Shown here one piece after another: positions 10,404-53,068 of a stretch of 64,000 bases of DNA. A model generated the notes under the pieces. It had not been told where the DNA came from, ran no database searches, and saw only the letters and a program-made list of their open reading frames with translations. The DNA lies in assembly GCA_028753945.1 (NCBI GenBank), contig JAPNXP010000011.1, positions 868,001 through 932,000 of the forward strand, read 5' to 3'. The first letter of the stretch is position 1; each line of letters begins with the position of its first letter. Source of the stretch: Hexactinellida sp. DTS-2022. Its lineage: Eukaryota; Porifera; Hexactinellida. The translations under genes were made by a program, and so were the position numbers.

Positions 10404-13400
10404 CAGTGGTGGCGCTAGCGTGCCGCCACTGGTGGGGGTGAGGAGGGGCTTTTCATTAATCAATGGGGGCTCATTTATTCCGAATTTTTTTCGATATACG
10501 TATTAACAATATTATATTATTAGTTAGTCACCTATACATATACAGATGTTCGCCGAAAGACCTGCTAGTGACTTTGCCCCTCTTGTGCGTTCTGTTCTTC
10601 TAAAGATTGCAGTGGCTCTTCCAGGTCCTTCAGATTTGTCTCAAAACCTGGAGGATGGGCCAGCGAAGCCTCAACTGAATTCATACCCTAAGAATTCAGA
10701 GCCAGGCAGTTTCAGTCGACATGGTATGCCGGTCGCGATTGGTTGGAGTACTCGCAGCAGCAGGACAAAGCCTACTGTTATTACTGCCGCCACTTTCCAT
10801 CAGGGTCTCAGGCAGACCCTGCATTCACCAGTATGGGAACGTCGAACTGAAAGAAGGCGTTGGACAAACTGAAGACCCACGTGGAGCGACTTCTCACTGT
10901 ATCGCAGCCTCAAAATATGCTGCGTTCAAGAGTTCTAAGGTGATTGGAAGTGTAAAGGCACTTTTGGATGATGGACACGCACAGTACGTAAAGGAGAATC
11001 GTGACTACCTCAAAGCCATTCTGGACGTTGTATTTATGTGTGCTCGCCAGGGAATTGCATTGCGTGGACATCGCGAAGGAGGAGCCAGAACAGAGGAAAT
11101 TTTCTCGTTCTCTTGGAGTTGGTCGCGAAGCATGATAAGCAGATTGCTGACACCTAGCAGAGGGATCCAAGAATGCCAAATACACGCATCACAGCATTCA
11201 AGACGACCTCATCCACTCCATTGCACAGCTCATTCCTCAAGATATCACTTCGGATGTGGCTGATGCTTTTCTACAGTATCATTTGCGACGAGGCCAAGGA
11301 TGCATCTAAGGAGGAGCAGATCAGTATCTGTCTTCGCTACTACGATGAATCTGCTGGACACACAGAGGAGGCTTTTTTGGCTTTCACTCCTGCGACGGAT
11401 GGGCAAGATGCTGCTAGTCTGAAGTCTAAGATAGTTGCTTCGTTGACGGAGAATAAGGTTGATTTGGGCTCATGTGTGGCGCAATGTTACGATGGGGCAA
11501 GCGTCATGTCCGGAAGACTCCATGGTCTACAGGTCCTCATGCGCAAGGACATGCCAAATGCGATTTACATCCACTGCTACTCGCATGGGCTCAACTTGGT
11601 GGTAGTTGATGTTGTCAATGGCTCAGCGAGGAATGCAGACCTGCTTGACACACTCCAGCAACTTCACAACTTTATGATTATATCAACCGCGAGGAAAAAC
11701 GCTGTCACAGCAAAGAAGACTATCTTACCAAGGTTTTCATTCCCACGTGCGAAAAGGTGACTGGCGAGCTAAAGGCCAGGTTTCTAACAGATGAGAACAT
11801 GACAATATACAATGGCATCATCACGCTCTCACCAAGTTCTACGCACTTCCTCAACGCAGTTATGGTCGCGGGGTTCTGCCAGCACTACAAACTTGTTGAC
11901 TCTCAAGACACACCGACGCTGAAGACGGAACTCGCCATGGTGTCTCATATCTGGGCGAGAGAAGATGTTGATGAACTCCCGAAAGCTCTCATAGACTTCC
12001 TCAGGTTCACTCAGCAGCACAAGCGTGTGTTCAGTGTCCTGTATCCGGCACTCCAGATAGCTGCAACATTGCCGGTGTCAAGTGCTTCTGCTGAGAGGTC
12101 ATTTTCCGCAATGAAGAGAATTAAGACTTGGTTACAAGCTGCAATGAGTAACATTCGTCTAAGTGATCTTGCAGTGGTCAATGTGAACATTGAGGTAACA
12201 AGCAAGATTGCCGAGGAGCCAGACATTGTGATAGATCATTTCGCAAAAGGGGGAAATCGTCGGATCGAATTAGACTAAACAAGAGTATCCTGAAATTGTT
12301 ACACAGTGGTTTAGAACCAAAGAATAGGAAAAAAATAGAATTCGTTTCTAAGCGATTCAATTGATTACTTATTGTTTGACTAAAGCTCATTTCAAATTTC
12401 TAAGCAATTGAGTGCCTAAAAGCAATACAATTGCACTCCAAATATGCATGATCATTTTAGCTGAAATTGTAGTTCTAGATAATTCTAAATTTAGCTTCAC
12501 TTCAAAGACAAATTAAGTTTAGTTTATACATTTCAAGTATGCTGAAACCGAATAACCTGTTTTCATTAATGTATTTTCAATATTTCGTTTGAGAAATCAA
12601 ATTCTATATCTGTTGTTACATTTGCATCAAAAATAAAAACTCAAAAGTGCCCATAAAAGTAAACTTCACAAAACTACAATTAGATATTGATACAAGATAT
12701 CCTTAACTATATCTAAATTCATAGTTTAAACTGACACGTCCCGAAACAGTGCTCAACTTTAAATATTTTAGCGAATTCCATTGTCACTTTGTGTTGCTAT
12801 GAAAATGCTAAAACTAATTATTCGAGACTATTCAGTAGTATATCTTTTTTGGTTACCCAAATGTATGTAAATATTGTATATTAAGAACAACTGAGCACTT
12901 AAGTACAATTTCATCAATGAGAGCAGCGAACTATGAACTCATATTGGGATTTTGATATTGAAGGAAGTTAGCTTTGCACAATTCGGAGGTTATTTAGTGT
13001 GATGCGCAAGTGACAGCTATGCTAGAAAAAGTCATCTAGGGTTTATATGAGTTCTAATACACATTATAATTACATTCAATAACCATCTACCCCCTTTACA
13101 TGAGTGTACAAATCCTTATATCCTTTGGGGCCGGACTTTTACGAAATATTCCCCATGTTCAAGATATTTTAACAATAACTGTGGGTGAGTATTAAAAGAT
13201 TGTTAACAAACCAAAAATTTTGTGTTTCATTGATTTACAACAAATCGCCCAGAACTAAACTTAAAAGAGTGAATACATCATTTTTGATGATGCCATTCAA
13301 TTCGCAGCTATCAATAACCCATATGCATTTAATACATTTCATATGTCTATCTGCAACCAGGATACCTATTCTTTACTAACTCCCATTTTAAACCACTGTG

Positions 13401-14207: not shown

Positions 14208-17200
14208 AATAATAATAATAATAATGCATTTCTAAAGCGCAAATTCCATAAAAATATGTTCAAATGCGCTGTACAGGAATCTATTAAAATCAATATAAAT
14301 AAAAGTGCGTGTGCGTTTGCAAAAGTGTACTCAAGTATGATGTGGACTCAGTGGAGTATGTTAGCATTTCTTGAATGCTTCTAGAAAAAGATGGGTTTTT
14401 AATTGTTTTTTAAAGACTTCTAGGGAAGGGGAATTTCTGATGGCAGTAGGGAGGCGATTCCATTCTTTTGGTGCTGCGATGGTGAATGAGCGATCACCGA
14501 GAGTTTTGAATGAGTTGATTGCTGGTTGATCAAGCGTAATTGCAGATCCCGACCTAAGAGAGCGGGTTGGGCGTTTCACTTTGAGGAGATCTGAGATGTA
14601 TGCAGGTTCATTTGAGTGGATTGCTTTGAAAGTGATCAAGAGGATTTTGAAGATGATTCGGTAATTGATGGGCAGCCAGTGGAGATCATATAGCAGTGGT
14701 ATTGACTCAGAAAGTATAGATGATTGATGGATAAGTCTGGCTGCGCTATTCTGGACACGTTGGAGGCGAGAAAGTAGTTTGGAAGGATGTCCGTAGAGTA
14801 GGCCATTGCAATAATCCAAACGAGAGGTAACAAGAGCGTTTACTAGGGTTTCACATACCTGTCGAGAGAGATATTTCCTAATTCTCCGGATATTATAGAG
14901 AAAGTAGAAGCAAGAGGATGCAACCTTGGTCACGTGTGAAGACATAGTGAGGGTATTGTCAAACCAAGCTCCAAGATTCTTAACCTCTTGGGATGGCGTA
15001 ATCTTAAATTTGCCAACAGATATTTCATTGATATTGATTTTTGCTAGTTGTTGGCGGGTGCCAATAATCTGAAATTCTGTTTTTGAGTCATTGATAGATA
15101 ATTTGTTATTGGTTAGCCACGTGCGGATATCAGCAACACAGGACTCGATGGTGGTGAGTGCAAGTTCTTCAGTTGTCGATGAGTCTGGTTTAAATGAAGT
15201 GTATATTTGAGTGTCATCTGCGTAGCAATGCATATTAGGTAGATGGGATTTTATGACATCAAAAAGAGGACTTATGTAAAGTATGAAAAGAAGCGGACCA
15301 AGACAGGAACCCTGAGGGACACCGTATTCGACTTTATGATCAGAGGATGAAGTTCCATTAATAGAAACGAATTGTTTTCTGCCAGATAAATAAGATTCGA
15401 ACCAGGATAATGGAGTATCAGAAATACCGAAGCAGCTGTGAAGACGGTTGAGTAGAATGGCGTGATCGACGGTATCAAACGCTGAGCTAAGGTCAAGGAG
15501 AACGAGAAGGGTGACATGTTGTTGGTTCATATTGAGGAGTATGTCATTCTTTACCTTAACTAGAGCGGTCTCTGTGCTGTGGTGTTTTCTATACGCAGAT
15601 TGTGTCCTTGGAAGGAGATTATGAGTATTAAGATAATCAACTGTCTGGGCAGCAACTACTTTCTCAACTAGTTTTGAGAGAAAAGATAGATTGGATAATG
15701 GACGATAATTTGCAAGGACAGGATCAATGTTGCTCTTCTTAAGTTTAGGACGAATAATAGCGCGTTTCCAGCAAGAGCAGAAATGACCTTTGGATAGGGA
15801 AGTATTTACAATTTTCTTCAGGACAGGAGCAAGGATGTTAATGGAGGATTTGATCAGTGAAGATGGTAGTGGATCAAGGTCGCATGTCTTGTGTGAACCC
15901 TTACTGACCAGATCCTTTATATCTTGTTCAGATAGTTCTTTGAATTTGGAGAATTGATAACAAGTGGAGTTAGACGATGTAGATGGATTCAGAATGGTTG
16001 TGTTGGAGTCAATGTCAGATCTTATTTTGGATACCTTCATAGCAAAGAAGTTAGCAAATTCATGAACTAATGTAGATTTGTCAGAGTGGGGTGGTAGCAT
16101 ATGTTCATCGTTCAATCCAAGCAATAATTTAGCTTTATTGAATAGTTTGCGTTTGTCATGACTATGTTCGTTTATCAATTCGGTATAGTATGCAGAACGT
16201 TCACGGTTCATCATAAATGTCATTATGTTTCTTTTTTCGTGGTAATTCTCCAGGTCGATTGTTTGGCGTGTAAGCCGCCACTTCCGCTCAGCACTTCGTT
16301 TCACATGCTTGGTATGTTTTATGGCGTTGGTGAACCAAGGAACAAGAGGCCGAGATACAATCGATTTCGTTCTTGTGGGTGCATGGTTGTTGTAGATAGC
16401 ACGTAGGGTGCTTTCATACAAGGATTGAAGATCATCAGGATTGTCAGGTGGGCTAAGACAAAGTTCGGAACCTGCGAGGTCTTCCAAGAAGAGTTGAGTA
16501 TCTATTAATTTTCGGCGGAATGTAATCTCTTTACTAGAAAGTTCGGGTTTAATGAGGGTTAGGGAGCAAGAAAGAGCGAAGTGGTCAGAAAAAAGTTCAT
16601 CGGCTATAGGGTCGGATAGTATTATCTGATCAGAGGTTCTTGTAATGATAAGATCAAGAGTATGACCCTTCTCATGGGTGGGCAGCTTAACATGTTGTAT
16701 AAGGGAGCATGATTTAAGAAGCTCAGTGAATAAAATAGACTCTGATGGCATGTCTAAGTGAATATTGAAGTCGCCAGTAATGATGAGAGGTTCTCGGCAA
16801 AGGATTGCATTTTCAAGAAAAGAAGAGAATTCTTCGAGGAATGTAGACGTAGTGGTGGGATGGCTCACAGAATACGGAGGCCTGTAAATAACAATGATGC
16901 GTATGCCTTGGTTTCCCATAGAGATAGTCCAGTCGGCTGATTCAAAGGAGGAGTGGTGACCGGATGTGTTATGTTTGAAGGTAAATATGTCACGGATAAG
17001 GAGTCCAGTGCCCCCTCCTTTACGTGATGAACACCTAGGCTGATCTAGAAGTTTGTAACCAGGGGGCGTTAGTTCAGCTCTAGCGGAAGTATCTCTAGTG
17101 GTTAGCCAAGTCTCAGTGATGGCAACAATGTCTGGTCTGTGTTCATTGATATGGTCTAGAAAGTATGCAGTTTTGTTTTTAAGATTTCTAGCATTAATGT

Positions 17201-17976
17201 ATCTAAATGATAGTTGGGTGGAGTGGCGATGGTGTTTGGGAGGTAGTAAATTGACAGAAATGAGGTTGGATAAGGTGAGATGAGGACGAAGGATCCGTCG
17301 AGGGTTTCGAGTTGATATACGAACTGGGATAGTTGTCATATGAACCTGTCCGGACCACTTCTCTCCAGTGGCAAAGAATGAGGGGAAATGCTCACTATAC
17401 TCTCCCCGCTCATCCCTAGAAGTACCGCTGTTGAAGGTGGTGGAGTGCTCAAGAGAGGCGGCATAGCGATGCTGCGCGGACATTGGAATGACAGAGTGGA
17501 GAGACTGAGTCCTGGACACTCTGTACGAAGACTTTGTGGTGGTCTCAGCCGAGAAGCGGTCCACTGCCGCAGGAGGTATCCTGTTAAGAGGGAGAGGATT
17601 GAACACGTCATCGTGTGTGCGGGATGATAGAAAATCCCCCTTCAGGGGTCTGTGGGCTGGCTTAGCAATGGAAGCAGGGATTGGCTCAGCGTAAGCCGAG
17701 AAGTCTATTCTCTGAGAAGTGTGAACGACATGAGGTCCGTTAGGAGCCCGGTATATAACTGGCATTGGTGCGAAGTAGGGCTTGGCAGTCTTCAGCGTGT
17801 TCACATGCTCCAGCTGGTGGGAGTGCGGCTGGAAGTATCGGTGTGTTGAGGCGGCGCATAGAGACATTGGGTCCCAAAATCGATTTCCTTCGATAATTGT
17901 GTTATTCCTTTGTGTTTGGGTTGACGTAAGCTAATTGCTGTAAGTTTTTTTATTGAAAGTTTGTAAAAGTAGTGTA
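14208..17976 (-). mobile_element. Full-length LINE of the L2/CR1 group
   Basis: Read on the minus strand: a 5' UTR of about 110 bp (17976-17868), one ORF (17867-14361), a short 3' UTR and a 3' tail of about five ATT units (14208-14222) preceded by gcgctttagaaatgc, as usual for L2-like elements. Both ends abut the 627-bp direct repeats exactly. The single long open ORF and identical-looking flanks indicate a recent insertion. Confidence 0.93.
14361..17867 (-). CDS. LINE polyprotein: AP endonuclease and reverse transcriptase (1168 aa, apparently intact)
   Basis: Performs target-primed reverse transcription: the endonuclease nicks the target and the RT copies the LINE RNA there. Residues 1-215 are a basic, Ser/Thr/Pro-rich region without a recognised fold, in the place of an ORF1-like segment. 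The endonuclease spans about 219-440, with YINARNL, ITETWL (E252), GDFNIH (D366) and SDHF (D428, H429). The RT spans about 690-990, with NYRPLS, LDLSSAFDTVDH (D792), PQGSCLGPL and YADDTQIY (D884, D885). The C-terminal part has the RLDYCNGLL and LHWLP motifs of the CR1/L2/Rex group. No stop, frame change or missing key residue was seen. No separate ORF1 lies upstream; the 5' UTR is short. The first ATG in the frame was taken as start. L2 versus CR1 clade needs a tree. Confidence 0.93.
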   Translation of the reverse strand: MSLCAASTHRYFQPHSHQLEHVNTLKTAKPYFAPMPVIYRAPNGPHVVHTSQRIDFSAYAEPIPASIAKPAHRPLKGDFLSSRTHDDVFNPLPLNRIPPAAVDRFSAETTTKSSYRVSRTQSLHSVIPMSAQHRYAASLEHSTTFNSGTSRDERGEYSEHFPSFFATGEKWSGQVHMTTIPVRISTRNPRRILRPHLTLSNLISVNLLPPKHHRHSTQLSFRYINARNLKNKTAYFLDHINEHRPDIVAITETWLTTRDTSARAELTPPGYKLLDQPRCSSRKGGGTGLLIRDIFTFKHNTSGHHSSFESADWTISMGNQGIRIIVIYRPPYSVSHPTTTSTFLEEFSSFLENAILCREPLIITGDFNIHLDMPSESILFTELLKSCSLIQHVKLPTHEKGHTLDLIITRTSDQIILSDPIADELFSDHFALSCSLTLIKPELSSKEITFRRKLIDTQLFLEDLAGSELCLSPPDNPDDLQSLYESTLRAIYNNHAPTRTKSIVSRPLVPWFTNAIKHTKHVKRSAERKWRLTRQTIDLENYHEKRNIMTFMMNRERSAYYTELINEHSHDKRKLFNKAKLLLGLNDEHMLPPHSDKSTLVHEFANFFAMKVSKIRSDIDSNTTILNPSTSSNSTCYQFSKFKELSEQDIKDLVSKGSHKTCDLDPLPSSLIKSSINILAPVLKKIVNTSLSKGHFCSCWKRAIIRPKLKKSNIDPVLANYRPLSNLSFLSKLVEKVVAAQTVDYLNTHNLLPRTQSAYRKHHSTETALVKVKNDILLNMNQQHVTLLVLLDLSSAFDTVDHAILLNRLHSCFGISDTPLSWFESYLSGRKQFVSINGTSSSDHKVEYGVPQGSCLGPLLFILYISPLFDVIKSHLPNMHCYADDTQIYTSFKPDSSTTEELALTTIESCVADIRTWLTNNKLSINDSKTEFQIIGTRQQLAKININEISVGKFKITPSQEVKNLGAWFDNTLTMSSHVTKVASSCFYFLYNIRRIRKYLSRQVCETLVNALVTSRLDYCNGLLYGHPSKLLSRLQRVQNSAARLIHQSSILSESIPLLYDLHWLPINYRIIFKILLITFKAIHSNEPAYISDLLKVKRPTRSLRSGSAITLDQPAINSFKTLGDRSFTIAAPKEWNRLPTAIRNSPSLEVFKKQLKTHLFLEAFKKC

Positions 17977-20317: not shown

Positions 20318-21568
20318 TTAAGCTGAAAATATTTGAAAACCATAGTTCAAATTATTAGAAATACAAATAAGTTCATTTTGGTGAAAGATTGATATTGCTT
20401 TTGGTCGGTGGAACATTCCAGCTTGATGTCCTTGTCGTCCTATTGTATGAAGGAGATCTCCTGTTTGTGAAAACACCTTGATGCAGTTAGCAGACCAGTC
20501 GCTAATAATAATGTTACTGCGACTGTCCAAACAGAAAAAATATGCTTCTTTAATTTGCATTTCATCTCCTCTGGTAATAATGGAGCGTGTCTTCTCTCCT
20601 GAAAGACCAAACACGTGAATGCATGGATTATCTCTACAGCTCAATACAAACAATTCATTGTGACAGAATTTAAGGTCAGATGGTCGTGTCATCGTTGGGT
20701 GCTGTAGAACACCTTGAAAAGATAGACTAGTAGACACAATTTGGAGTCTATCGTTGTTTTCGTCTGCAACACAAATATGTTCATTGGGAGAGATAGCGAG
20801 TTGTTTAGGTTTATTGAATTTATCACTACCAGACCCCTTTTCCCCGACTTGCTTAATCATTTTGAGTTCTGGAAACTTGAATTGGAATATGACGTGGTGT
20901 CCTGTGTCAGTGACATAGATATTATCCAGGTGGATCAAAACACCATATGGTTTCATCAGGTGCTGATTTCCGAAATGGTTGTAGTAATCTCCATTTGATG
21001 AGAATATTTGTATTCGACTGTTTTCACGATCTGCCAAATATATGTGTCCTGTTTCAGGTTGAATTGAGAATCCTTGTGGACCATTAAACTCTGTGGGACC
21101 AGTTCCTCTTTTACCAAAAGCAACAATTGGTTGTTGGAATTCAGCGTAAAATGGGATAATAGGCATAGAAGGTATCTCGAGGGTAACGATCTCTCCCAAG
21201 CAGTCGATGTGTTTATCGATATATTGTGTATCACATGTGAATATAATTTCTTGACTTAATGGTGTATTGGCTTGAAATTCCACCCGTTTTGCTTCCAACT
21301 CGGTGACAACTTTCTCTTGCATGGAACGGAGGAGATTATGTGTCAACATACCTTCTAGCATTTTACTGGACTCAACTAATTGCTCTTCCACCTGCTTTAG
21401 AGCTACCTGACTGCCTCTCATTTCTTCTCGTTTATCCCTTAATGCGGTTAAAAGATAAAGTCTTCTCTGCTCGAGAGAGTATATTAACCTGTCAATTGTG
21501 TTGTTAATTGCTGAGGCTATGGGATCGAGGATTGGCACCGGGCCAGTCTCAGGGATTTGTGCCGCCAT
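20318..21568 (-). CDS. Coiled-coil and NHL-repeat protein (TRIM/NHL-like without RING), single exon
   Basis: A 416-residue protein with residues about 15-100 predicted helical and heptad-like (Leu/Glu/Lys-rich coiled coil). Residues about 145-416 carry NHL-type blades, each with a G-x-I/Y-V-A/T-D core followed by N-x-R/C-I-x-V/I-F: GHIYLADRENSRIQIF, NIYVTDTGHH, HICVADENNDRLQI, IIISDWSANCIKVF. This is the back half of TRIM-NHL proteins; the RING and B-boxes are absent, so E3 ligase activity is not expected. NHL propellers bind RNA or protein; the partner is unknown. The only in-frame start that includes the helix is MAAQIPETGP. A transposon begins 290 bp upstream of the start codon, so the promoter must lie within that gap or in the element. 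The paralogue at 42621 has the same layout. Confidence 0.88.
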   Translation of the reverse strand: MAAQIPETGPVPILDPIASAINNTIDRLIYSLEQRRLYLLTALRDKREEMRGSQVALKQVEEQLVESSKMLEGMLTHNLLRSMQEKVVTELEAKRVEFQANTPLSQEIIFTCDTQYIDKHIDCLGEIVTLEIPSMPIIPFYAEFQQPIVAFGKRGTGPTEFNGPQGFSIQPETGHIYLADRENSRIQIFSSNGDYYNHFGNQHLMKPYGVLIHLDNIYVTDTGHHVIFQFKFPELKMIKQVGEKGSGSDKFNKPKQLAISPNEHICVADENNDRLQIVSTSLSFQGVLQHPTMTRPSDLKFCHNELFVLSCRDNPCIHVFGLSGEKTRSIITRGDEMQIKEAYFFCLDSRSNIIISDWSANCIKVFSQTGDLLHTIGRQGHQAGMFHRPKAISIFHQNELICISNNLNYGFQIFSA

Positions 21569-21860
21569 TTTGAATGAAATGATGTTTTATTTAAGAATTA
21601 TACTATTAGTTTTTAATCCAATAACATATGTAGCTCCGTTTTATCTTGAATGTAAGATATACCTAACTAATTTAGCTAACTTATATGGTGTATCGTATGA
21701 CTCTTGCATTAAACTTGTTGCATAATTGATATCCGATTTAATTAAAGAGAATGTGGGAAATATTATATGCTCTAGAAATCTGAAAATTTGCATGCAGGCG
21801 TAATTTTACACGCTGACAATGGTCATGGTCTATTGGTTTTCCAAACCAATTAAAGGGAGA

Positions 21861-22539
21861 GTGGAATTCTTCGTCAAATCATAGTGTCATTTCACCAACA
21901 TTCTCAGATTTGTCTGAAACTTTGTGAGTCGAGAGTACTTAGCTGTTCAATGTATTCCTGCAAGTTTCAAAAATTTCCGCAATGCTGTTCTCAAATTATG
22001 ACGTCACGAAATTTGGCATTTTCATCATTTTTTAAAAACTTTCAAGAATACTATTTGACTGCCATATTTCAAACTGCTATATTTTTGTCAGTTTTAATGC
22101 TAGCAATATGATCTTTACACTACACACAGTTTATAATTCGTAGATTTCTATGAATATAATAGTTATTTGATTTATGTCATTATATCATTTATTTTTTGGA
22201 CTGGAACTCACTCATGCTATGTAACCGGAACTATGACGTAACTCTAGGGGGAATGTTGGGAAGTGAAATTTATTTTTCTAACACATTCCTTATTCGACTC
22301 TTTCAATATGGTGAAAGTTTCAAAAATTTCCCATTTTTCCCCTCTTAGATATTAAACACTTTATGTCACTAACTCAATTTTACAGTTAGCAAATTGGAAA
22401 TATATTTTCCAAAACTTTCCAAAATTAATAATTTGATTTATCAAAACTAAATTTGCCGTTTTTATATTCTTGGCAGTGATACAATTCTTTTGTAGTTACT
22501 AAATCTGGCAAAGGTATGTATATAATTGAATCAATTACT
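21861..22539 (+). repeat. Left 679-bp terminal inverted repeat
   Basis: Ungapped reverse-complement match to 26899-27577. Includes short motifs shared by both arms, such as tgacgtcacgaaatttgg versus one changed copy, showing slight divergence. Confidence 0.92.
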
Positions 22540-22761
22540 AACCATATCTCAAACTTTATTTTTGTGAATGGTTGTTTTTCAAATAAATGTACATATCACG
22601 TATTTACTTATATTAATATACTGAGTTCTGATGATATTACTATCAAGGTAGCTAAAACAGGTGCAAATACGTAATAATAAGAATTATATATATTTAATTA
22701 CAAAGGAATTATTATTTTTATGAAGAAACAAGGAAAAATATTGTTGAGATTGATATAAACC

Positions 22762-25700
22762 TTATTTCTTTGATTGTAAGCGTGTTGTCATCAAATCACT
22801 AATAGATTTGGCATCAATTAAAGAAATCTTGTATTTTCGTGCTGCTTTTGATGATGGAGTTGGTGCCGATATCTTGCAAAGGATGTCATTATTCGGTATA
22901 TAGCAATTATCTTCTTTTGGAGGCCAGAAAAAGCAATTCATAGGTCTCCCTGGTCCTTTTGGGTGCATAAATTTAATCTGTAGATCACCTTCTTCCTCGC
23001 ACACCATTTCAACTATCCCTATATACCAGTCATGGTCATATATACAGGCGACATAATCACCGATATTCAGGTATGAAACCTCATGATATTCTATAATATT
23101 ATAATTTTTCGCTCTTCTTTGTTTTGAGAAATCAAAAGTCATGGTAAAATCTACTTGTCTACTGTACCTCTTAGCTCCAATTAGTGTTGTATCCAATGGA
23201 ACAAATTGATGATAACTACGTGTTCCAGGCAAAGCCTTGATATCTAAATATCTAAGAGAATATTGTATTGAAAGTAAAAAATAAGTAGAACGAATTTATA
23301 AGTTGGGAATTAATTTGCATACAACATACCTGGCTTCAAATGTCTTTCTTAGTTCAGTCAGCTGATATTGAGGTATATAAAAGAATTTAATGGTTGAGAG
23401 GCTAGTGGTAGTTGAGCAAAATTCAAACATCTCCAATGATGTTAATATCTGATTAACTCTCGGTCTTTGTAAACTGGCTCTTGCAGTTACTCTCTTTACA
23501 GTACCTCCTATAGCATCACAAGGTGATTTCCCGTGAGAAGTTGCAAAAAAGTTCCATTCTGCTTCAATTCCAAATTCTGCTTTATGTTGACACAGGTTAT
23601 AAAAATTCTTCTTATTTTTATATTGAGCTGCACACCCATCACTAAAATATATGACTTTTTCGATACATGGTAATATTCCCCTCAAAAATTCTGTAAATAC
23701 TTGTTGGATTTTATATACCATGATGACATCGTGTTCTGTATCATCAGAAATGAAGCAGAAAGATTTGTTGCATAGAATATCTACAGTATAATGTAAGGAA
23801 ACTTGCATTCGAATAATTTATTTTAATCGAAGTAATGTTCGACTCAATTACAAATGCAAAAACTCATATTAAAATGTTACCATTTTGTTTATAATAGATG
23901 ACAATTGGATGCAACGTGGCTTGCGAATTATTCCAATGAAATCCTTGAACTTCATCTTGAACAACAAAGGAATAGTTCTCAGCAAAGTCAACAAGAATAA
24001 TAGCTGTATCATCTTCAAGGTTATTCTTCAGTTCTTTACAATAAGAACTCTGAACTTTGGATAAGAATGAGTGTGACGTCAATTTCTCGATGGAAGCAAT
24101 AAGAACATCATAAAACTTATCTAATGGCAATGTGTGTGTCTCTAAGGTCGTTCTATCAGTGCTCTCCCATTGTTTATAGTAAATTAGTGCCTAGAATGTA
24201 AAATACACTAAGTTCAAATGGGAGGAATATAATACAAGTATTTGTATAGTTGTCTTCCACCGAATATAATAAATTATGTCACATGCTCAATAAAGAGTAT
24301 TCCAAAATTGTTATATAAATAAATAGCAATACCTGTTCATCTTTTTCTTTCACTATCGTAGTTAGATATTGTCTGAGGTTGCCGTCTCCAGGACATTTCT
24401 CACATCGATGGATCATGCATTCATGATTATCAAGAGAACACACCAACTTCGACATCAATGTTTTGTATGAGTCGGGAATGTCTAGAGCATCGATTAGAAG
24501 AATACTGTTTTGGTGGATAGAGCATACACATACTGAGTGAGTTCCACATGAGTCAGCAAGTACGCACCACTTTGGGCGTAAAGTGCAGAACTTAGAAAAA
24601 GAAATCTAGAAAGATTAAGTTGGATTAACGTCAATAGAATGATTATCTCTGTACTACAGTGAAATTCTATTAGCGCATCCTATTTGTAGAATTGTCTAAT
24701 TCGAAATTTATTGATGAATGGTGCACAACATAACGAACTACATATGACCACACATTGTTTTATTACATCACACATATTACGCATTCACAGCAATTAGTGA
24801 AAAAGTATCCTGACCTTTTTATCTGGATGACTTCTTTTAAATTCTCCATGTAATTCTTTTAAATTTGACAAAATTAATCTCTTTTGGACGTGAACATTTT
24901 TCGCGATACTAACATAATCCTTCTTTCCTGGCATCTGACGTGTGAATTCGTCATCTTCGTAAAAATATTCAACAGCTCTGGTAATTTCTTCAGGCAACTT
25001 TCTCCCTATTACAGATTGTTTTCATTTAACCAGATGGAAGTAAGTAGGTGTATCGTAAAATCTTATATCTTACCATTTTTAGATTCAACTTCTCCAAGGA
25101 TACCCTTATTTTGCAATAATTCCCGTGAGAGATCTACCAAGTATAGTGAAGTACCAAAATACTTAGATACAGCTTCACGAGAGCAATTCTGCGGGGCTAA
25201 AGTAAGTAACTGCGTTTGCTTACGAGTATCAGAATGAGAAATTTCATTCTTGATCAAATACATTAGACGATCATATTCTTCAGCTTTTTCCTCAACTGTT
25301 AAGTTTCCGATATTGCTGCTCGTAGTTGAATATGAAATTTCTTGACCTTCCTCTATAGACTAATTTCAGGATTGTGTTAAAATCGAATTTAGAAAATTGT
25401 ATACAGGGTTGCCATGGGTTTGGGAATTACCATGGGATCCCCATACCCATAGAAATGGGATCGAAATGGGAATCAGATTATCCCCTATGGGGATCCCCAT
25501 ATGGAACTTACAATCTATAGAAGATATTCAAATTCTGAAAGCGAACCATTTCGAAAAACGAATGGAAACCCATATGATGATCCCCACAAAATTATTGTGG
25601 GATTGAGATGGGAATAGAAATTCCACTCCCACGGCAACCCTGAATTCGTATATACTCACCTCTAAACAATCTTGCAATCTTGTTAATTTTTTTTTAAATT

Positions 25701-26733
25701 CAATTTGTCTTCCGTGAAATTGCTTACCATGTTTATTTACTGGTGAAATACCAAGGGCAATAGGGAGTTCATCTATAACAATTTCTAGCATATCCTAGAT
25801 AAATTAATCAAATACATTAATTACAATAACCATAATACGGTGAAAATTAAATGGGTAAATTTGAGATGGTCAACTTGGGGATTCAAAAAAGCACTATTAT
25901 ACAGTAGAGCAGTGGTTCTCAACATGTGGGTCGCGAAATAAAATATTCGAGAAAACCTCTGCAGTATAGTGTATACTCAACACTAATTAATAATTTCATT
26001 TATCTGTTACTTATTATACTACTAGTTGTCACAAATAGTATAAATATTTGTGAAAACTTGGAGTATATTAATAAGTTTGCAGTATCCGCTACCTCCAGAG
26101 TCCATACTCAATAGATTTTGGACTATAAAATCAATCAGTTTAAATGGAATACCTGAGTTAATCTTGTATCAATCGTTTGAATATCAATATCCTGATCTGT
26201 TATATTCGAATCTGTATATCCTGGTACTCTAATTGTTGTATTTGGCGAATGAAATGATTTAGACATTCTATATTCTCTAGGTTCTTTCAAAATATCCGAT
26301 AATTGAGAATAACAACGGGAGCATACTTTCCGCCCAGGCACAACTGATACATCAAAACTTGACAAATTCATTGCATTACATTGAGTAATAGTGATTGTAC
26401 CTAATTTTGTATAATATACAATTACATACGTATATTAGCATAATAGTTAATAATAAACTCACCTTTGCAATTCTGGTTATTGGTACTGTGCTTATTAAAT
26501 GGGTCACAACAATATGGATTTAATTTAGAATATTTATCCAAATATATTTTTTGATGATGAAGACAGATTGTCTTTAAGTTACGCTTACGAACTCCTGTTC
26601 TCCAAATTAACAAGTCAACGTCCTTAGTTGAAAGATCAGTTATTAACAATAGAGCACATTTTCCATGAGTGTAAATTGTGCTATGACAATTAGAGTCACC
26701 AATCTCACCAAAAGAACAATTAGTTAAAGACAT
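22762..26733 (-). CDS. Spliced transposase-like gene, 9 exons, 888 aa, putative D-D-D core
   Basis: Exons on the minus strand: 26733-26463, 26400-26153, 25794-25660, 25350-25074, 25005-24815, 24605-24333, 24190-23881, 23801-23330, 23251-22762. Every intron is gt..ag, phases agree, and the sum is 2667 nt (889 codons with stop). The N-terminus has Cys pairs (CCDPFNKH, then GRKVCSRCYSQL), possibly a zinc module. Exon 5 holds RQMPGKKDYVS and exon 6 FCTLRPKWCVLA and GTHSVCVCSIHQN with later Cys/His pairs. Exon 7 has ILVDFAENYSF (D about 533) and FHWNNSQATLHP. Exon 8 has YFSDGCAAQYKN (D about 623) and SHGKSPCDAIGGTVKR (D about 664). Exon 9 has PGTRSYHQF and a Tudor-like stretch (NIGDYVACIYDHDWYIGIVE). 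I recall similar uncharacterised proteins in many invertebrates. The location between long TIRs makes a transposase likely; the catalytic assignment is inference. Confidence 0.8.
25404..25642. mobile_element. hAT MITE in intron 3 of the transposon gene
   Basis: Ends cagggttgccatgggtttgg and the imperfect mirror gagtg...ccacggcaaccctg; the 239-bp element contains repeated ccccat and atgggg motifs. The flanks (aattgtata and aattcgtata) look like a degraded duplication. It sits wholly within intron 25351-25659 and leaves both splice sites untouched. Confidence 0.78.
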
Positions 26734-26898
26734 TGAAGAGAATAAAGTATTTAGAAATCTTGATTGCAGAATGAATATTTGAATACAATAATATGAATAT
26801 AACGTGTATATATTTACCTACAATATCATTTCCTTTAAAGTATAAATACATACTATAGTTACCAGGTTGTAGTTAAGATATCGTCAACACAATTGTTC

Positions 26899-27577
26899 AG
26901 TAATTGATTCAATTATATACATACCTTTGCCAGATTTAGTAACTACAAAAGAATTGTATCACTGCCAAGAATAAAAAAACGGCAAATTTAGTTTTGATAA
27001 ATCAAATTATTAATTTTGGAAAGTTTTGGAAAATATATTTCCAATTTGCTAACTGTAAAATTGAGTTAGTGACATAAAGTGTTTAATATCTAAGAGGGGA
27101 AAAATGGGAAATTTTTGAAACTTTCACCATATTGAAAGAGTCGAATAAGGAATGTGTTAGAAAAATAAATTTCACTTCCCAACATTCCCCCTAGAGTTAC
27201 GTCATAGTTCCGGTTACATAGCATGAGTGAGTTCCAGTCCAAAAAATAAATGATACAATGACATAAATCAAATAATTATTATATTCATAGGAATCTACGA
27301 ATTATAAACTGTGTGTAGTGTAAAGATCATATTGCTAGCATTAAAACTGACAAAAATATAGCAGTTTGAAATATGGCAGTCAAATAGTATTCTTGAAAGT
27401 TTTTAAAAAATGATGAAAATGCCAAATTTCGTGACGTATTAATTTGAGAATAGCATTGCGGAAATTTTTGAAACTTGCAGGAATACAATGAACAGCTAAG
27501 TACTCTCGACTCACAAAGTTTCAGACAAATCTGAGAATGTTGGTGAAATGACACTATGATTTGACGAAGAATTCCAC
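26899..27577 (-). repeat. Right 679-bp terminal inverted repeat
   Basis: Lies 166 bp upstream of the start codon of the transposon gene, so it probably contains the promoter. The open frame within it (27327-27590) mirrors the one in the left arm and is not a gene. Confidence 0.92.
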
Positions 27578-27603
27578 GAGAACAACACATATTTGAATCA
27601 ACT

Positions 27604-27824
27604 CTTTCAGTTTTTATCCGATCCTAGAGCTCGTACTGTTTGGGTTAGAAAGTATGTCAGAGAATTCCATTTAAATTTGCATTGTCCTCGATAACTTTGA
27701 ACATGACATTTAGAAGATAAATTGTAAGTACATTGGGTAGGGCAGCGATTGGAGATGTCTTCCGCGTAATCAACGTCCTGAAGAGGAGTGTTTTCGGGTT
27801 GCTTGTCATCTATCCCGTCATGAG
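27604..27824 (-). CDS. Possible terminal exon of an unknown gene
   Basis: On the minus strand an open frame follows a plausible acceptor (gtatttcaag). It reads DGIDDKQPENTPLQDVDYAE, then SNRCPTQCTYNL and KCHVQSYRGQCKFKW, and stops after RALGSDKN. Four cysteines in a short stretch and an acidic start give it some coding character, but I do not recognise the family and no upstream exon was found between here and 28.2 kb. It starts only 27 bp beyond the transposon end. Confidence 0.25.
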
Positions 27825-28264
27825 CTTGAAATACAGAAAAAGACAGGGTAAAATACTTTTTTGGACTCCAAACGTCTCATTTAGCTGCAGAATATCAAAT
27901 AGAGTAGTATGATCTTGGACTATATCATAATTAAAATTGTCCAAATCCACCACGTTTTCTGATCAGAAAAGAAAAGTCTTCTACTTCTATAGGATCTATT
28001 CTTATTGAATGCTAAGATATCAATACGACATTCCTCATATTATATAATGTTCTTGATGATCGGAATTGAATATCTCTTCTTAACCATGAATTATTTAAAG
28101 ATTAGTAGACCTTGGTTTATTTTAATCTGAAACTTATTTGATGAAATTTGAAATGGAATTTCAGTGGCCACCAAATTGTTGTTTTACTAGGCTTGCGCCA
28201 GAATGTTGCGACGTTCCTAAATTGAGGACAGTGGTGTTCGCCTAATAGCAATAGCTCTAGTAGC

Positions 28265-28345
28265 AATACAGTACACCCTCGCTAATCCGAACCCCGCTAA
28301 TCCGAACCCTCGCTAATCCGAACCCTCGCTAATCCGAACAGGAGA
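28265..28345 (+). mobile_element. Fragment of the CAGTACACCCTCGC pogo MITE
   Basis: cagtacaccctcgctaatcc followed by three further ctaatccgaac units. Only one end is present, so it is truncated or rearranged. Same family as 6824-7154. Confidence 0.75.
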
Positions 28346-28358
28346 AACCAACATAAAT

Positions 28359-28975
28359 TTGACTTCAGTTACCTGGGAGATGGAGTACACTATATGTGAA
28401 GGCAAAAAAGTTGACTCTAAGCATTACATTTCAATTGATTACAGATATAAGTTGACTCAAATTTATGGAGGGACTAAGTATTTACGATGCACACTTTGGA
28501 GGACACAGCCTTGGAATTGCCCAGGCAAGGCGTTTATTTGTGATGGCACTCATGGCAGTAATCTACTGACTAACAAGCAAGAGCATAATCACACACCAGC
28601 TGTCTAAAATTCCCATACAATCCAACTTAGAAATAAGTTAAAATGGGCGGCTGAAAATTCTACCCATAATTTGAGGGAAATCTTTGATAACCAAACAAGT
28701 GATGATCCAGCTGGAGCATCAATTAATTGCATATTGTCAGATTAGAAATTCTCTGGTCAAACGAAGAAAATAACTTTTTCCAGGTGTTCCCTGAACCTCT
28801 GAGGAGTTCAAAGAATGATATCTAATTCCGGTTTTTTTAATTTTTATAGGGGTAGTGTATAATTTCCCAACAATGAAGGCACAGCTGTTTTATTTATTTC
28901 CGACCTGATGCTTGCTACTCTAAAGTTAACGAAGAGCATCAAGTTTGATGCGACGTTCTATGTGGTTCCAAAAAT
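28359..28975 (+). pseudogene. FLYWCH-MULE transposase relic
   Basis: An 82-codon frame holds a FLYWCH finger: YKLTQIYGGTKYLRCTLW, NCPGKAFI and EHNHTP. After a stop the sequence still reads NLREIFDNQTSDDPAGAS in the frame expected for the linker of such transposases. Near 28906-28974 KSIKFDATFYVVPK matches the first strand of the MULE catalytic core, with its Asp. The rest of the transposase is absent, and a GC-rich insertion begins right after. A broken, 3'-truncated element of a lineage different from MULE-1 and MULE-2 by sequence. Confidence 0.75.
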
Positions 28976-29112
28976 CTTTGCCCGAAGGGTCCGGGGTCGG
29001 CCCAATCGATTCCGGGGCCGCTACATTCACGGCATAAATAAATATCTGGGTAGCCCCTTCGGGCTGCCCAGCCCATGCCAGGTGGCCCGGGTGGGTCCGC
29101 GCCTATGTATCT
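28976..29112. mobile_element. GC-rich insertion (probable hAT MITE)
   Basis: A 135-bp GC-rich patch with ggccc palindromes ending in gcgcctatg, the end type of the CATAGGCG family. The left boundary and target duplication are unclear. The collagen-like minus-strand frame across it is an artefact of composition. Confidence 0.45.
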
Positions 29113-40849: not shown

Positions 40850-42555
40850 CTAGTTTATCCCATGATTAAAAAATCCTCCTTGATTTGGATAATTTAGCAA
40901 ATTATCGTCCAGTTTCGACCCTTCCTTTTTTAAGTAAGATTATTGAGCGTATCGTGGATTCTCAGATTGATTGCTATTTGCTTGAGAACAATCTTTACCC
41001 AAGTAAACAGTCAGCATATATGCGCCACCACTCTACTGAAACACTGCTGCTAAGACTTGTTAATGATATAGCTCTTGCACTGGATAACAATCTTGATGTG
41101 GCTCTTATATTATTTGATCTAAGTAGCGCCTTTGACACTGTAGAGTGTAGACCATGAATTACTTTTGAAGAGGTTGAAACAAATATTTGGTTTCTGTAGT
41201 GTTGTGCTACAGTGGATGAGGTCCTATTTAACAAATCGTTAGCAGACAGCTGTTGTTTCTAAAGCTAAATCGGAGTCGTATAATTTTAATGGGGTGTGCC
41301 ACAAGGCTCTGTGCTCGGACCAATTCTTTTTCTACTCTATATTTCACCTATTCAAGAAATTGCTAGACTTCATAAACTTGACTTCATGATATATGCGGAT
41401 GATACACAAGTGTATACTTTTTTCAGCATTGACCATCCTAAAGTCCAGCTACAATCTCTGGAAACTTTTTCAAATGATATTATATGTTGGTATAAGTCTA
41501 ATCGGTTAAGTTGTAATCCAGGGAAAACCCAGTATATTCACTTTTCTTGTAAATTTAAGATAGTTACTCCAACTTTGAGTATGTCGATAGATGGGCATGA
41601 TATTAAACCAGTTGATAGTGTACGTAATCTTGGTGCCATAATAGATTGCAATCTTAGCATGAAAAAACATGTATCTAATTTGTGTCCATCCATATGCATC
41701 GTTTTCTTTGAGAAATATTAAAAGTATCAGTAAATATTTAGACAGAAATTAATTAGAACGGTTAGTACATGCTTTTATATCCTCCAAAATAGACTATTGT
41801 AACTCGATTTTGTATGGACTGACTAACAAGGAAATAAACAAAATTCAACGAATTCAAAATGCATCAGCCCGTTTAATCACAAAAAGTAAGAAATTTGACC
41901 ACATTTCGCCAATTCTGGAACAACTTCACTGGCTCAAAGTTAAAAAGCGAATTATTTATATAGTACTCTTAATTACCTTTAAATCTCTTCTCTATCAGTC
42001 ACCTTCTTCCCTTACAAATATTCTAATTCCTCGGCAGTTTTGTAGAAGTCTTAGATCAGAATCAGATCGAAATCTGTATGTCCCAATTCCAAAAAAGAAA
42101 TATTATGGTGGCAGGACTTTTTCTGTCATTGCCCCGAAATTATGGAATTCAGTCCCCAAAGATATTAGAATGTGTGGATCAGTTCATATTTTTAAGAGAC
42201 AATTAAAGACCTTTCTATTCGGAATTAATGAAGATGCCTTGTGGTTAAGTTAGCTGAGATTTATTAATATTCTAATTTTTCATTGTCATCTGTTCGCACT
42301 CTTAGTCCAATTACTTAATGTACTTTGTACTTTACACCACTGAACTTAATCTTATTACACTGTATATATTCTGAATCTTTTTAATGTACTTTGTACTTTA
42401 CACCACTGAACTTAATCTTATTACACTGTATATATTCTGAATCTTTTTATTTATTTTTATTTTATTTTCATGTACAAAATTGTAAGCGCATTGAGACATT
42501 TGTATAACGCGCAAACAAATGCTGTATTATTATTATTATTATTATTGTTATTAAT
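40850..42555 (+). mobile_element. 5'-truncated LINE of the L2/CR1 group
   Basis: Reverse-transcriptase half of a LINE, ending in gcgcaaacaaatgctg and (ATT)n at 42525-42552, the tail style of the LINE at 14208-17976. The 3' UTR has a 66-bp tandem duplication (42315-42446). The element stops 66 bp before the NHL gene at 42621. Confidence 0.88.
40885..42253 (+). pseudogene. LINE reverse transcriptase relic
   Basis: Pieces in order: NYRPVSTLPFLSKIIERIV, LILFDLSSAFDTV (motif A) to 41155, then a frame change; VPQGSVLGPILFLLYISP (motif B) and MIYADDTQVYTFF (motif C, YADD) in another frame to 41721; after a further frame change and a stop, SSKIDYCNSILYGL and LEQLHWLKVKKRI to the stop at 42253. The endonuclease half is missing. 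Both Asp of YADD remain. At least three lesions make it inactive. By its motifs it belongs to the same broad LINE group as the intact copy but is clearly a different family by sequence. Confidence 0.88.
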
Positions 42556-42620
42556 TATGTATTATACAAATTTTTAATTTACATTATCTGTGTGATATTT
42601 TAATTTTATCTTTAGCGAGA

Positions 42621-43859
42621 ATGGCAACTGCATACCCATTTGAAGCAGGTAATAAAGATAATTACGAGTTAGAATTGAGTCGAGTGAGAGAGAAGGTTAA
42701 AACTAAATTTGTTGAATTTACTGATTGCTTGAAAGCTAGAGAAAGTGAGCTATTGAGAGAGTTGGATAATATTCTAGCTTCTTATCTCTCTTATAGAAGC
42801 CAATTGGAGAAAGTAAATGATAAGAAAATAGCTCTTGAAACAACGAAAACATTTCTTCAAAATCAAATTCAAACTTCTCCTATAAAGGCTGTTCATGAAG
42901 ATTGCATTGCGCGAGTAAACACAGAACTCAAAGCAATTGACACTCCAATAGAACCTAAAATGATTAGTTTTCAGTTTGACAGCATCAAAATGTTAGCTGA
43001 ATTGAACAAGTTGGGTAAGTTGGTAGAGAAAGTGAGAAGTGGAATTGACTATAAAAGCAAGAAACAACCTCTAGTGAGTGTTTGTGAAAGAGGAAATGGA
43101 ATGGGACAACTAGACATTCCACTAGGAGTAACTGTCGATAATAATACGGGCAATATTTACATAGCAGATCAAGGTAATAACTGTGTAAAAGTATTCGATT
43201 GTGCTGGCAAGTATTTGCTCAAATTTGGAGACAACGAAGATGAAGGAAAGATGAACAGTCCGAGAGGTGTAGCTGTTTGTGGAGGTAGAATTCTTATTTC
43301 TCAAGGTAACAACTGTATTCTCAATTATCAACTCGATGGGAAGTTTGTTTCTAGATTCGGTAGACAGGGAAGAGGAGAGTTAGAATTTATCTATCCCTAT
43401 GGTCTAACAATTGATGAGTCTAATGGATACATTTATGTTAGTGATCGTAATAATAATCGTATTCAGGTTCTTTCCCAGGATTTTCGTTTTATATCTCAAT
43501 TTGGAAAAGAAACACTGAAAGACCCTCATGATGTTAAACTCTCCAAGGAATACATTTATGTTCTCGATTCATCTAATCCTTGTCTCCATCTCTACAACTC
43601 TGATCGAATTCTACAGAAGAGTGTTGTATCTCGAGGCCAAGGAATGGAAGTTATTATTCCTTGTTTCTTTTTCATTGACCATACTGATTATTTTCTCATT
43701 TCAGATCGTAGCTCTAACTCTATTAATATTTTCAATACTGAATTCCAATTGATTCATAAGATTCCAGTCTCTAAGTATCCAACAGGTATTACAGTAGACA
43801 AACAAGGAAGAGTTATAGTAGTATTTCAAGCTAATAAGGATTGTCTACAGATATTCTAA
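42621..43859 (+). CDS. Coiled-coil and NHL-repeat protein (TRIM/NHL-like without RING), single exon
   Basis: A 412-residue protein. Residues about 15-110 are charged and helical (ELELSRVREKVKTKFVEFTD), a probable coiled coil. Residues about 155-412 form an NHL propeller of about six blades: GNIYIADQGNNCVKVF, RILISQGNNCI, GYIYVSDRNNNRIQVL, YIYVLDSSNPCLHLY, YFLISDRSSNSINIF and RVIVVFQANKDCLQIF. There is no RING or B-box. The start MATAYPFEAG follows a pyrimidine-rich acceptor-like sequence (tttatctttag) by five bases, so a 5' UTR intron is plausible; the LINE just upstream would then lie in that intron or the promoter. A related but diverged gene is at 20318, and a closer pseudogene at 45391. 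The function is unknown; NHL domains bind RNA or proteins. Confidence 0.9.
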   Translation: MATAYPFEAGNKDNYELELSRVREKVKTKFVEFTDCLKARESELLRELDNILASYLSYRSQLEKVNDKKIALETTKTFLQNQIQTSPIKAVHEDCIARVNTELKAIDTPIEPKMISFQFDSIKMLAELNKLGKLVEKVRSGIDYKSKKQPLVSVCERGNGMGQLDIPLGVTVDNNTGNIYIADQGNNCVKVFDCAGKYLLKFGDNEDEGKMNSPRGVAVCGGRILISQGNNCILNYQLDGKFVSRFGRQGRGELEFIYPYGLTIDESNGYIYVSDRNNNRIQVLSQDFRFISQFGKETLKDPHDVKLSKEYIYVLDSSNPCLHLYNSDRILQKSVVSRGQGMEVIIPCFFFIDHTDYFLISDRSSNSINIFNTEFQLIHKIPVSKYPTGITVDKQGRVIVVFQANKDCLQIF

Positions 43860-50569: not shown

Positions 50570-53068
50570 TTAGTTAATCATTGTTTTACTCTTTTTCCGC
50601 ATCCGGTTATTCCTTTTCTTGGACAACACTGGGTTAAGTATTCTTTTGCCTTTAGGTCTCCCAACTTTTTTTGCAGTTTTCGGATTTAGAATCATTCTTC
50701 GTGAAGGTTCGTTATCAGTTTGCTCAACAATACTGGAAAGATCTTGAATTTCTCTAGCTGAGTTTTGTTCGTTTAAGTTCATAAATTGAAAATTGTCAGC
50801 TAACTTTTGAATAGTATCCCGGACTAGTTTGAAATTTTCTTCATTGTACTTTGCCTTTTCGGCAATGCTTCTAAACTCAGAACACATTAACAGGTACTTT
50901 TCATCAGGAGTCAACATTGGTACACCACATTCTTGAATAAATGAATTGGGATTATGGTCCAAAACTTGGTGCTCAACTTCAATATTGGAAGCTATGAACC
51001 ATATAGGCGCGACAACACTAGTAGGAATGCATTCAATTTGTTTTTGACGATAAATCCATAACATATGCCTGCATGGAAGGCCATAAGAATTGGGAAATAA
51101 ACAAGTGCACGTTGTTAAAGTTGTTTTTCTTAACTTCTCAACGTTTAGACTATCTTGCTCTATCCCTAAATCGTGTTTTATAATTGTTGCACTTATCGAC
51201 GCTTCATTTTGACTATGCTGACATAAATCATTTCCACTGCCCATAACTGATCGGTTAAGAGAATGATGGAGATTTGATTTGACGGTGTATACTTTTCCTA
51301 GGATATCCCCATCCTGCTCAGCGATGATATCATAGTTTAAGCACATAGATATCTGTACTTCAATTAATGATCTTGCATAAGGTGAAATTTTTGAAAAACT
51401 AGCTTTAATGGGGTGAGTTGGTGCATTCTGTGAAGCCTGTTTAAGTGCAAGTCTGGTTGCATTCCCTTCACCTTTTTCAGAAATAGTTACTTGATACTGA
51501 TCAAGCTTTGCAACAAGTTGAGTTAAGAGAGTGTGTGCTGTCAAAACACCCTTGATTGCAAAGTGAACTGATTCGCTTCTCTGCGTTGAAATTATTCCAC
51601 GTGTCTGAAATTGCCACGTCCACCTCACAGCCCATTTATATCGTTTTTCGTAAAGTGATTTTAACCATGGAATTGGTTCATCATTTTTATTGGAGTTATA
51701 AACTATTTTCAATAATTCATTCCACTCTTGGTCAAAGGAGTCAATTGAATTATAGTCTTGACGTTTGCATATGATCCACCATTTCTTAATAAAATTCTTA
51801 AAATGAGAACCCAACAGAGGCCTCATATGAGAGCAAATATTTTGTGAGATATGCCAAGTACACAAAGAGTGGTTAGTAGATGGAAGAATCTTCGTTATAG
51901 CTAATGCAATTGCCGGGTCACCATCGGTAACTATCGTACTTGGTGCCATGTGAAATCCTCTCAAAAATCCAAATAAATGATTCTTCAGTCTCGTCAAATA
52001 TCAACGCACATGCTAAAAATTATAGTCCTTCCATGCTTGTCTATGGTGTCCATATCTGCGAATCTCAGTCCATACCTGTTTGTAGCATGGCTCGTATCAA
52101 ATAAAAGAGGATTTTGATCACCACCTTATGCCCATGTTTGAGTACTATTCTCGAAAATCCAAAATGTCCTAATTAAGCACCCGTCTATATCTGTAACTGT
52201 AGCACAGAACAGATTCTTACTCAAATTACGTTTGTGCAAATATTCAACAAAGTTGGTAGCGTCAAACCCTTTTTCTTTCGAAGAAGGCTTGAAATAGTTA
52301 TAGATATCATTATAATTCCAAGAAATTTCAATATTTAGGTGAAAAGATTCACTTTGTAGCACACGGTTGATAAGTGCTGGAGAATATCCTGCTCTTTTAC
52401 AAATTTCTCCAATTTCGATTAGCTGGTCAGGAATGAAACGCAATGAACTCTGTGAAAGGCTAGATCCTGTGGTTAGAATTAATTCATGATTATGAAAGAA
52501 ATGATCTTTGATCCCCTCTCGCCGAATTAGCCTTCTTAAAGGATCCAATAATCATCTTAAACCTTCCTCCACCCAAACTAAAATCAAATGCCCACTTTTG
52601 TATTGCATTTTTCGCTTCATCAAAGCTAATCCAGGGTCCAGAGGGAAATCCATCGGGTATCTGAATCTCTTTTTTATCAAAAATTTTCGTCTCGGCCCGT
52701 TTTGTGCATTTTCTATTCATTTCATTACTAAGCATATGCTGCTGTGAGTGATCGATTTCTGTTTCAAGAGTACAATGATTATCCATACCAGGTTGGACCT
52801 GGTTATCAGTGTTTAGATTCATATCATCTGGAGAGTAGATACTTGGATCTGCGTCAAGAGATTGATCGCTTGAATTTTGAGAATTATTATAGTAGTCTTC
52901 AGGAATGGGAGGAAATTTCGAAGCATATGGATAAAAAGGAGGATCACGATCACCATACCTGATATCTTCACTCACAACGTTATTTAATGGACCAATAATG
53001 CAATTTCGCAAATTGTTGTTAAAGAATTGGTGTGATATGTCGTTCATATAAGCATCAACGTAGTCCAT
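50570..53068 (-). pseudogene. MULE transposase, FAR1-like with SWIM zinc finger (broken)
   Basis: Three main pieces on the minus strand. Piece one (53068-52490) has an acidic start and a FAR1-like beginning (GPWISFDEAKNAIQKWAFDF). Piece two (52548-52126) has HNHELI and the helical linker. The catalytic part begins at about 52115 with NPLLFDTSHATNRYGL, changes frame near 51960, and the long open piece (51997-50570) carries STIVTDGDPAIALAI, the CTWHISQNI motif, SESVHFAIKG, and the SWIM finger CTCLFPNSYGLPCRHML. It ends in a basic AT-hook-like tail (KKVGRPKGKR). Plant FAR1/FRS factors and Mutator transposases share this order. Three or more frame changes or stops make it inactive, but each piece is well preserved, so it probably died recently. 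Confidence 0.88.

Follow-up and report, generated by a model that had tools for sequence, protein, structure and literature searches.

What kind of element occupies positions 21861-27577 of a 64,000-nucleotide stretch from the sponge Hexactinellida sp. DTS-2022 (assembly GCA_028753945.1, contig JAPNXP010000011.1, positions 868,001 to 932,000; hereafter the window), and to which transposase family does its gene belong? A reading of the sequence alone had proposed a young transposon encoding an apparently undescribed type of transposase. The first of these claims was strengthened here, in that the element is young-looking, structurally intact and probably autonomous, and is flanked by a 4-bp target-site duplication (TSD). 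The second was not established, as the measured features fit the account of Sola in the part of PMC10741241 that deals with this superfamily. It is judged slightly more likely than not that the element belongs to the Sola superfamily, or to a close relative, as an autonomous DNA transposon of the cut-and-paste kind with its structure intact, the comparison with Sola being one of descriptions only. To classify and test a transposase family that was unmatched by the general libraries tried, one needs a copy like this one, unbroken and complete with its two ends and target site. Should the element belong to Sola, a little-studied superfamily would gain a member that is open to testing and has very long ends; should it not, a new superfamily would be defined by it. 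In both cases, it could give a name to proteins that we take to be unannotated in many invertebrate genomes.

The element measures 5,717 bp and is bounded by two terminal inverted repeats (TIRs) of 679 bp each, located at 21861-22539 (left, plus strand) and 26899-27577 (right, minus strand). Local alignment of the left arm with the reverse complement of the right arm was gapless and identical at 671 of 679 positions (98.8%), in agreement with the two inverted arms with few differences reported in the sequence-only reading; half of the eight mismatches are transitions. A repeat search over positions 20500-29000 returned this single pair of inverted arms, with a length of 684 bp that includes a 5-bp overrun past the inner end. 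The outer termini of the arm alignment are GTGG/CCAC, and a window-wide search for the terminal 20 bp, GTGGAATTCTTCGTCAAATC, tolerating at most three mismatches, gave two occurrences, one at each end of the element (mean of 0.03 in 100 shuffles). No further copy of the arms was found within the 64-kb window. Directly outside both termini stands the tetranucleotide GAGA, with a left copy at 21857-21860 and a right copy at 27578-27581, forming a perfect 4-bp repeat that adds to what the sequence-only reading had described; two random local 4-mers would agree by chance with p = 0.006. A flanking repeat of this kind is what integration with a 4-bp stagger would leave behind, and it provides modest evidence for such an event. 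A search for an empty site, using the joined flanks, gave no match in the 64-kb window, a check of low power.

The arms carry candidate functional sites. In the left arm, which was the arm searched, a 20-nt motif, TGCAAGTTTCAAAAATTTCC, at 21959-21978 (plus strand) is a candidate transposase binding site, with a second copy (95%) at 22312-22331, and the copies contain AAGTTTCAAAAATTTCC. None of the eight arm differences falls inside the motif copies, so the right arm carries both as well. The right arm lies upstream of the gene and thus probably carries its promoter. A cAMP response element (CRE)-like palindrome, TGACGTCA, was also observed in the left arm at 21999-22006; because the arm differences at 21999 and 22000 fall on it, the right arm, which adjoins the start of the gene, lacks the full site.

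The space between the arms holds a single minus-strand gene (22762-26733, ATG to stop), which in the preferred splice model consists of nine exons and eight introns and encodes 884 amino acids in 2,655 nt. All eight introns are GT..AG, their phases match, and there are no internal stops. As a control, the longest coding chain of up to nine exons, with introns of 45-700 nt, was determined for the region between the arms, with stops across junctions ignored in both data and controls. The minus strand gave a best chain of 2,790 nt and the plus strand one of 1,293 nt, compared to 1,191 +/- 110 nt (maximum, 1,452 nt) in 60 dinucleotide-preserving shuffles. A chain so far above the shuffle maximum indicates that the gene is real and unbroken rather than a chance assembly, confirming the nine-exon minus-strand gene with gt..ag introns in matching phases that had been read from the sequence. 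The same reading gave a product of 888 residues, a length reproduced here with the alternative acceptors 25350 and 23801 (in place of 25359 and 23780) but not in the preferred model; its numbering of three aspartates as 533, 623 and 664 fits the 888-residue version, in which the motifs start at 531, 621 and 657. Acceptor 23780 is preferred over 23801 because a pyrimidine-rich lead precedes the former and not the latter, while either 25359 or 25350 is possible, the former being used in the 884-residue model.

In the order of transcription, exon 1 (26463-26733) encodes a Cys/His-rich N-terminus and exon 2 (26153-26400) a CSRC motif, followed by exon 3 (25660-25794), exon 4 (25074-25359, with the alternative acceptor at 25350) and exon 5 (24815-25005). 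A second Cys/His cluster (CGTH, CSIH, CMIH, and CEKC) lies in exon 6 (24333-24605). Exon 7 (23881-24190) contains the LVDFAENY block with a candidate first catalytic aspartate, D536, and exon 8 (23330-23780, with the alternative acceptor at 23801) contains both FSDGCAAQYKN (D619) and SHGKSPCDAIGG (D660). The C-terminal part is encoded by exon 9 (22762-23251), and possible polyadenylation signals, ATTAAA (22698) and AATAAA (22560), are located past the stop codon.

Because a single gene takes up the interior of an element with long TIRs and a flanking TSD, the gene product is most likely the transposase, a conclusion drawn from the anatomy of the element. Judging from the motifs, the three blocks around D536, D619 and D660, spaced by 83 and 41 residues in the 884-residue model, could form a three-aspartate (DDD) RNase-H core. 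Structure models were computed from single sequences of single exons, and the mean predicted local distance difference test (pLDDT) score was 38.5 for exon 8 and 37.0 for exon 9, values too low for the models to bear on such a core; D536, in exon 7, lies outside both. Exon 9, modeled with low confidence as mostly beta strands, may be Tudor/SH3-like by its appearance, although such a model decides neither for nor against a Tudor fold.

Library searches with the protein returned no named family. In Pfam, the whole protein had no significant match, its top hit, to an alpha-solenoid model, having E = 0.29 and falling far short of the cut-off; NCBIfam gave no match, and the best sequence matches in the PDB were not significant (E = 0.28 with the protein as query, E = 0.51 with exon 9). 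In PHROGs, searched with exons 8 and 9 only, one exon had no match and the other a single match at E = 0.091. A Pfam match of exon 1 to a TGF-beta receptor ectodomain (E = 0.0066, below the curated cut-off) was put down to chance, the stretch being rich in Cys. As a positive control, Pfam was applied to seven other open reading frames (ORFs) of the window and recognized two MULE, one hAT, two reverse-transcriptase and two NHL-repeat ORFs, one of the MULE ORFs scoring 23.0 bits against a cut-off of 27.6. Since five other transposon ORFs in the window were thus detected, the silence on this protein is more probably due to a gap in the library than to a failure of the method. A profile search of this kind had been proposed in the sequence-only reading as a check on novelty; the absence of a significant match in Pfam and NCBIfam indicates no more than that these libraries are without the family.

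Relatives were also sought directly. An IMG/VR protein scan gave seven pattern matches and no confirmed relatives, and an IMG/VR scan for the HGKG..D motif gave none. A slightly widened version of this motif matched 28 stretches in GTDB species genomes, and tblastn of the protein against these produced nothing below E = 0.69; two more IMG/VR motif scans yielded 21 and 4 stretches, and tblastn against all 53 loci produced nothing below E = 1.5. Motif scans require exact matches and the collections are viral and prokaryotic, so these results say little about animals. Uncharacterized proteins of many invertebrates presumably share the block order DFAENY / SDG..QxKN / SHGKG..DG.GG and the same Cys-rich N-terminus, a likeness that serves as a lead and not as a test.

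The strongest competitor of the Sola assignment is an autonomous DNA transposon of an unnamed superfamily, with a protein family that falls neither in Sola nor in any other transposase group described. On this reading, the protein family, to our knowledge widespread in invertebrates, would be absent from transposon catalogues. The lack of significant matches in Pfam, NCBIfam, and the PDB favors such a group, as does a full-text literature search in which peptide strings, taken partly from the window, matched nothing in the papers covered. In addition, the TIR length and the letters of the TSD are unlike those of the amoebal Sola2 elements described in the relevant passage of PMC3627910. On the other hand, the measured features fall inside the ranges that PMC10741241 gives for Sola in its treatment of that superfamily, and the null library results show only that those libraries lack the protein, which does not separate Sola from a new group. 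An unnamed superfamily is therefore considered rather unlikely, and the same doubtful standing is given to its fuller version, in which this would be the intact founding copy of a DDD group whose transposase joins an RNase-H core, its third block being SHGK..D, to a pair of Cys/His-rich modules and to a C-terminus like that of a chromatin reader.

Membership in another named superfamily with a possible TSD of about 4 bp, namely MULE, Academ, Ginger, Kolobok, piggyBac, or IS481EU, is improbable. TSD length itself agrees with several of these: 4-6 bp for Ginger (in the section of PMC10741241 on that group), 4 bp for Kolobok and piggyBac, 4 bp in some IS481EU families, and 4-10 bp for MuDR/IS256, the last range being compatible with a MULE. 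Long TIRs are likewise usual for MULE elements (PMC10741241, in its account of the group) and are shared with the present element. However, the Pfam MULE domain was not found in the protein, although elsewhere in the window two ORFs showed it, one of them below the cut-off; the C/DxxH signature was not found between D619 and D660; and plant MULEs, as summarized in that account in PMC10741241, have TSDs of 7-12 bp, as opposed to 4 bp here. Ginger elements resemble the present one in their fairly long TIRs, but these are given as 40-270 bp with TG..CA ends in the same section of PMC10741241, whereas the TIRs here exceed that range at 679 bp and end in GTGG..CCAC, and no integrase match was found in Pfam. 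Kolobok and piggyBac target TTAA specifically rather than a site such as GAGA, and Pfam gave no significant match for the protein, to piggyBac or otherwise. For IS481EU, the reported hosts are parabasalids, and its Histomonas families have TGT..ACA ends. Finally, that a non-mobile host gene came by chance to lie between the arms of a large inverted duplication is very improbable, for although a single copy was seen and the arms recur nowhere else in the window, they stop sharply at a perfect 4-bp repeat and the gene fills the inter-arm space, which is how autonomous DNA transposons are laid out.

The most likely mode of transposition is cut-and-paste, with ends, flanking repeat, and gene observed and the intermediate steps proposed as follows. 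Transcription would begin within the right arm or close to it. The N-terminal half of the protein, rich in Cys/His, would bind the element ends, perhaps at the repeated AAGTTTCAAAAATTTCC motif, while the C-terminal half would fold as an RNase-H-like nuclease, with D536, D619, and D660 as its putative catalytic residues, and excise the element. Next, the 3' ends would attack the two target strands at points 4 bp from each other, and gap filling would leave GAGA on both sides. The last exon could provide a Tudor/SH3-like chromatin-reading module. The 98.8% likeness of the arms, together with the unbroken gene, indicates that the copy is either young or kept even by gene conversion; because of such conversion, and for want of a rate, an age estimate from the 8 differences per 679 bp was dropped. 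Activity, which the sequence-only reading had raised, stays a possibility, one copy having been examined.

The element has probably itself been a target. Intron 3 contains a 239-bp insert (25404-25642) with imperfect inverted ends, CAGGGTTGCC...GGCAACCCTG, and a G+C content of 43%, compared to 32% between the arms; it left the coding sequence intact and is probably a nested non-autonomous transposon, which we take to be of hAT type. In intron 2, a stretch at 25910-26071 begins with CAGTGGTTCTCAAC, presumably resembling a hAT terminus, and a 27-nt inverted repeat (85%) lies at 26011-26071.

Elsewhere in the window, further ORFs were observed. Two MULE transposase ORFs lie at 1594-2889 and 50573-52000, the first below the Pfam cut-off and ending in a RING-finger-like stretch (zf-C3HC4_3, E 1e-4, below the cut-off), and a hAT transposase C-terminal dimerisation region lies at 11649-12275. 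An apparently uninterrupted ORF of the long interspersed nuclear element (LINE) type, a stop-to-stop frame of 1189 aa with endonuclease and reverse transcriptase domains, occupies 14364-17930. Together with the introns, the LINE-, hAT- and MULE-type ORFs point to a eukaryote. Uninterrupted NHL-repeat frames were found at 20321-21586 (422 aa) and 42555-43856 (434 aa); the former points away from the transposon, its open frame starting about 275 bp from the left end.

The Sola superfamily, with which the element is preferentially grouped, was reportedly first described by Bao and colleagues in 2009. It consists of Sola1, Sola2, and Sola3, as described in parts of PMC10741241, PMC3627910, and PMC4455052, and the first of these sources, in its entry on the superfamily, gives a DDD transposase, 4-bp TSDs, a length of mostly 2-9 kb, and TIRs of 11-1124 bp. 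Several points weigh against the assignment. The likeness to Sola was drawn from published descriptions; the TSD is known from one insertion only, and GAGA is simple sequence; the catalytic fold is putative, the models of exons 9 and 8 having pLDDT values of 37.0 and 38.5; and no relative was found among the viral and prokaryotic collections searched. In addition, the Sola2-type elements of the amoeba Dictyostelium fasciculatum have TIRs of 12-13 bp and 4-bp, AT-rich, Sola2-consistent TSDs, and those of Polysphondylium pallidum have 21-bp TIRs, in contrast to the 679-bp TIRs and GAGA of the present element. The passage concerned (PMC3627910) covers amoebae only, and a short TIR and an AT-rich TSD may not be defining for Sola2. 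Bivalves carry Sola elements, the curated library of the authors containing 14 Sola2 and 8 Sola1 consensus sequences, according to the portion of PMC10294476 that reports it.

Set beside these descriptions, the sponge element agrees with Sola in its 4-bp TSD (one insertion), in its 679-bp TIRs, which lie inside the range of 11-1124 bp, and in its length of 5,717 bp, inside that of 2-9 kb, as both ranges stand in the Sola entry of PMC10741241; where that entry names a DDD transposase, the protein has three candidate aspartates, with models of exons 8 and 9 at a mean pLDDT below 39. A Sola2-like position within the superfamily is a guess, one for which the length of the protein offers a further likeness: 884 or 888 aa here and 888 aa for the Sola2-type transposase of D. 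fasciculatum, as given in the amoebal passage of PMC3627910.

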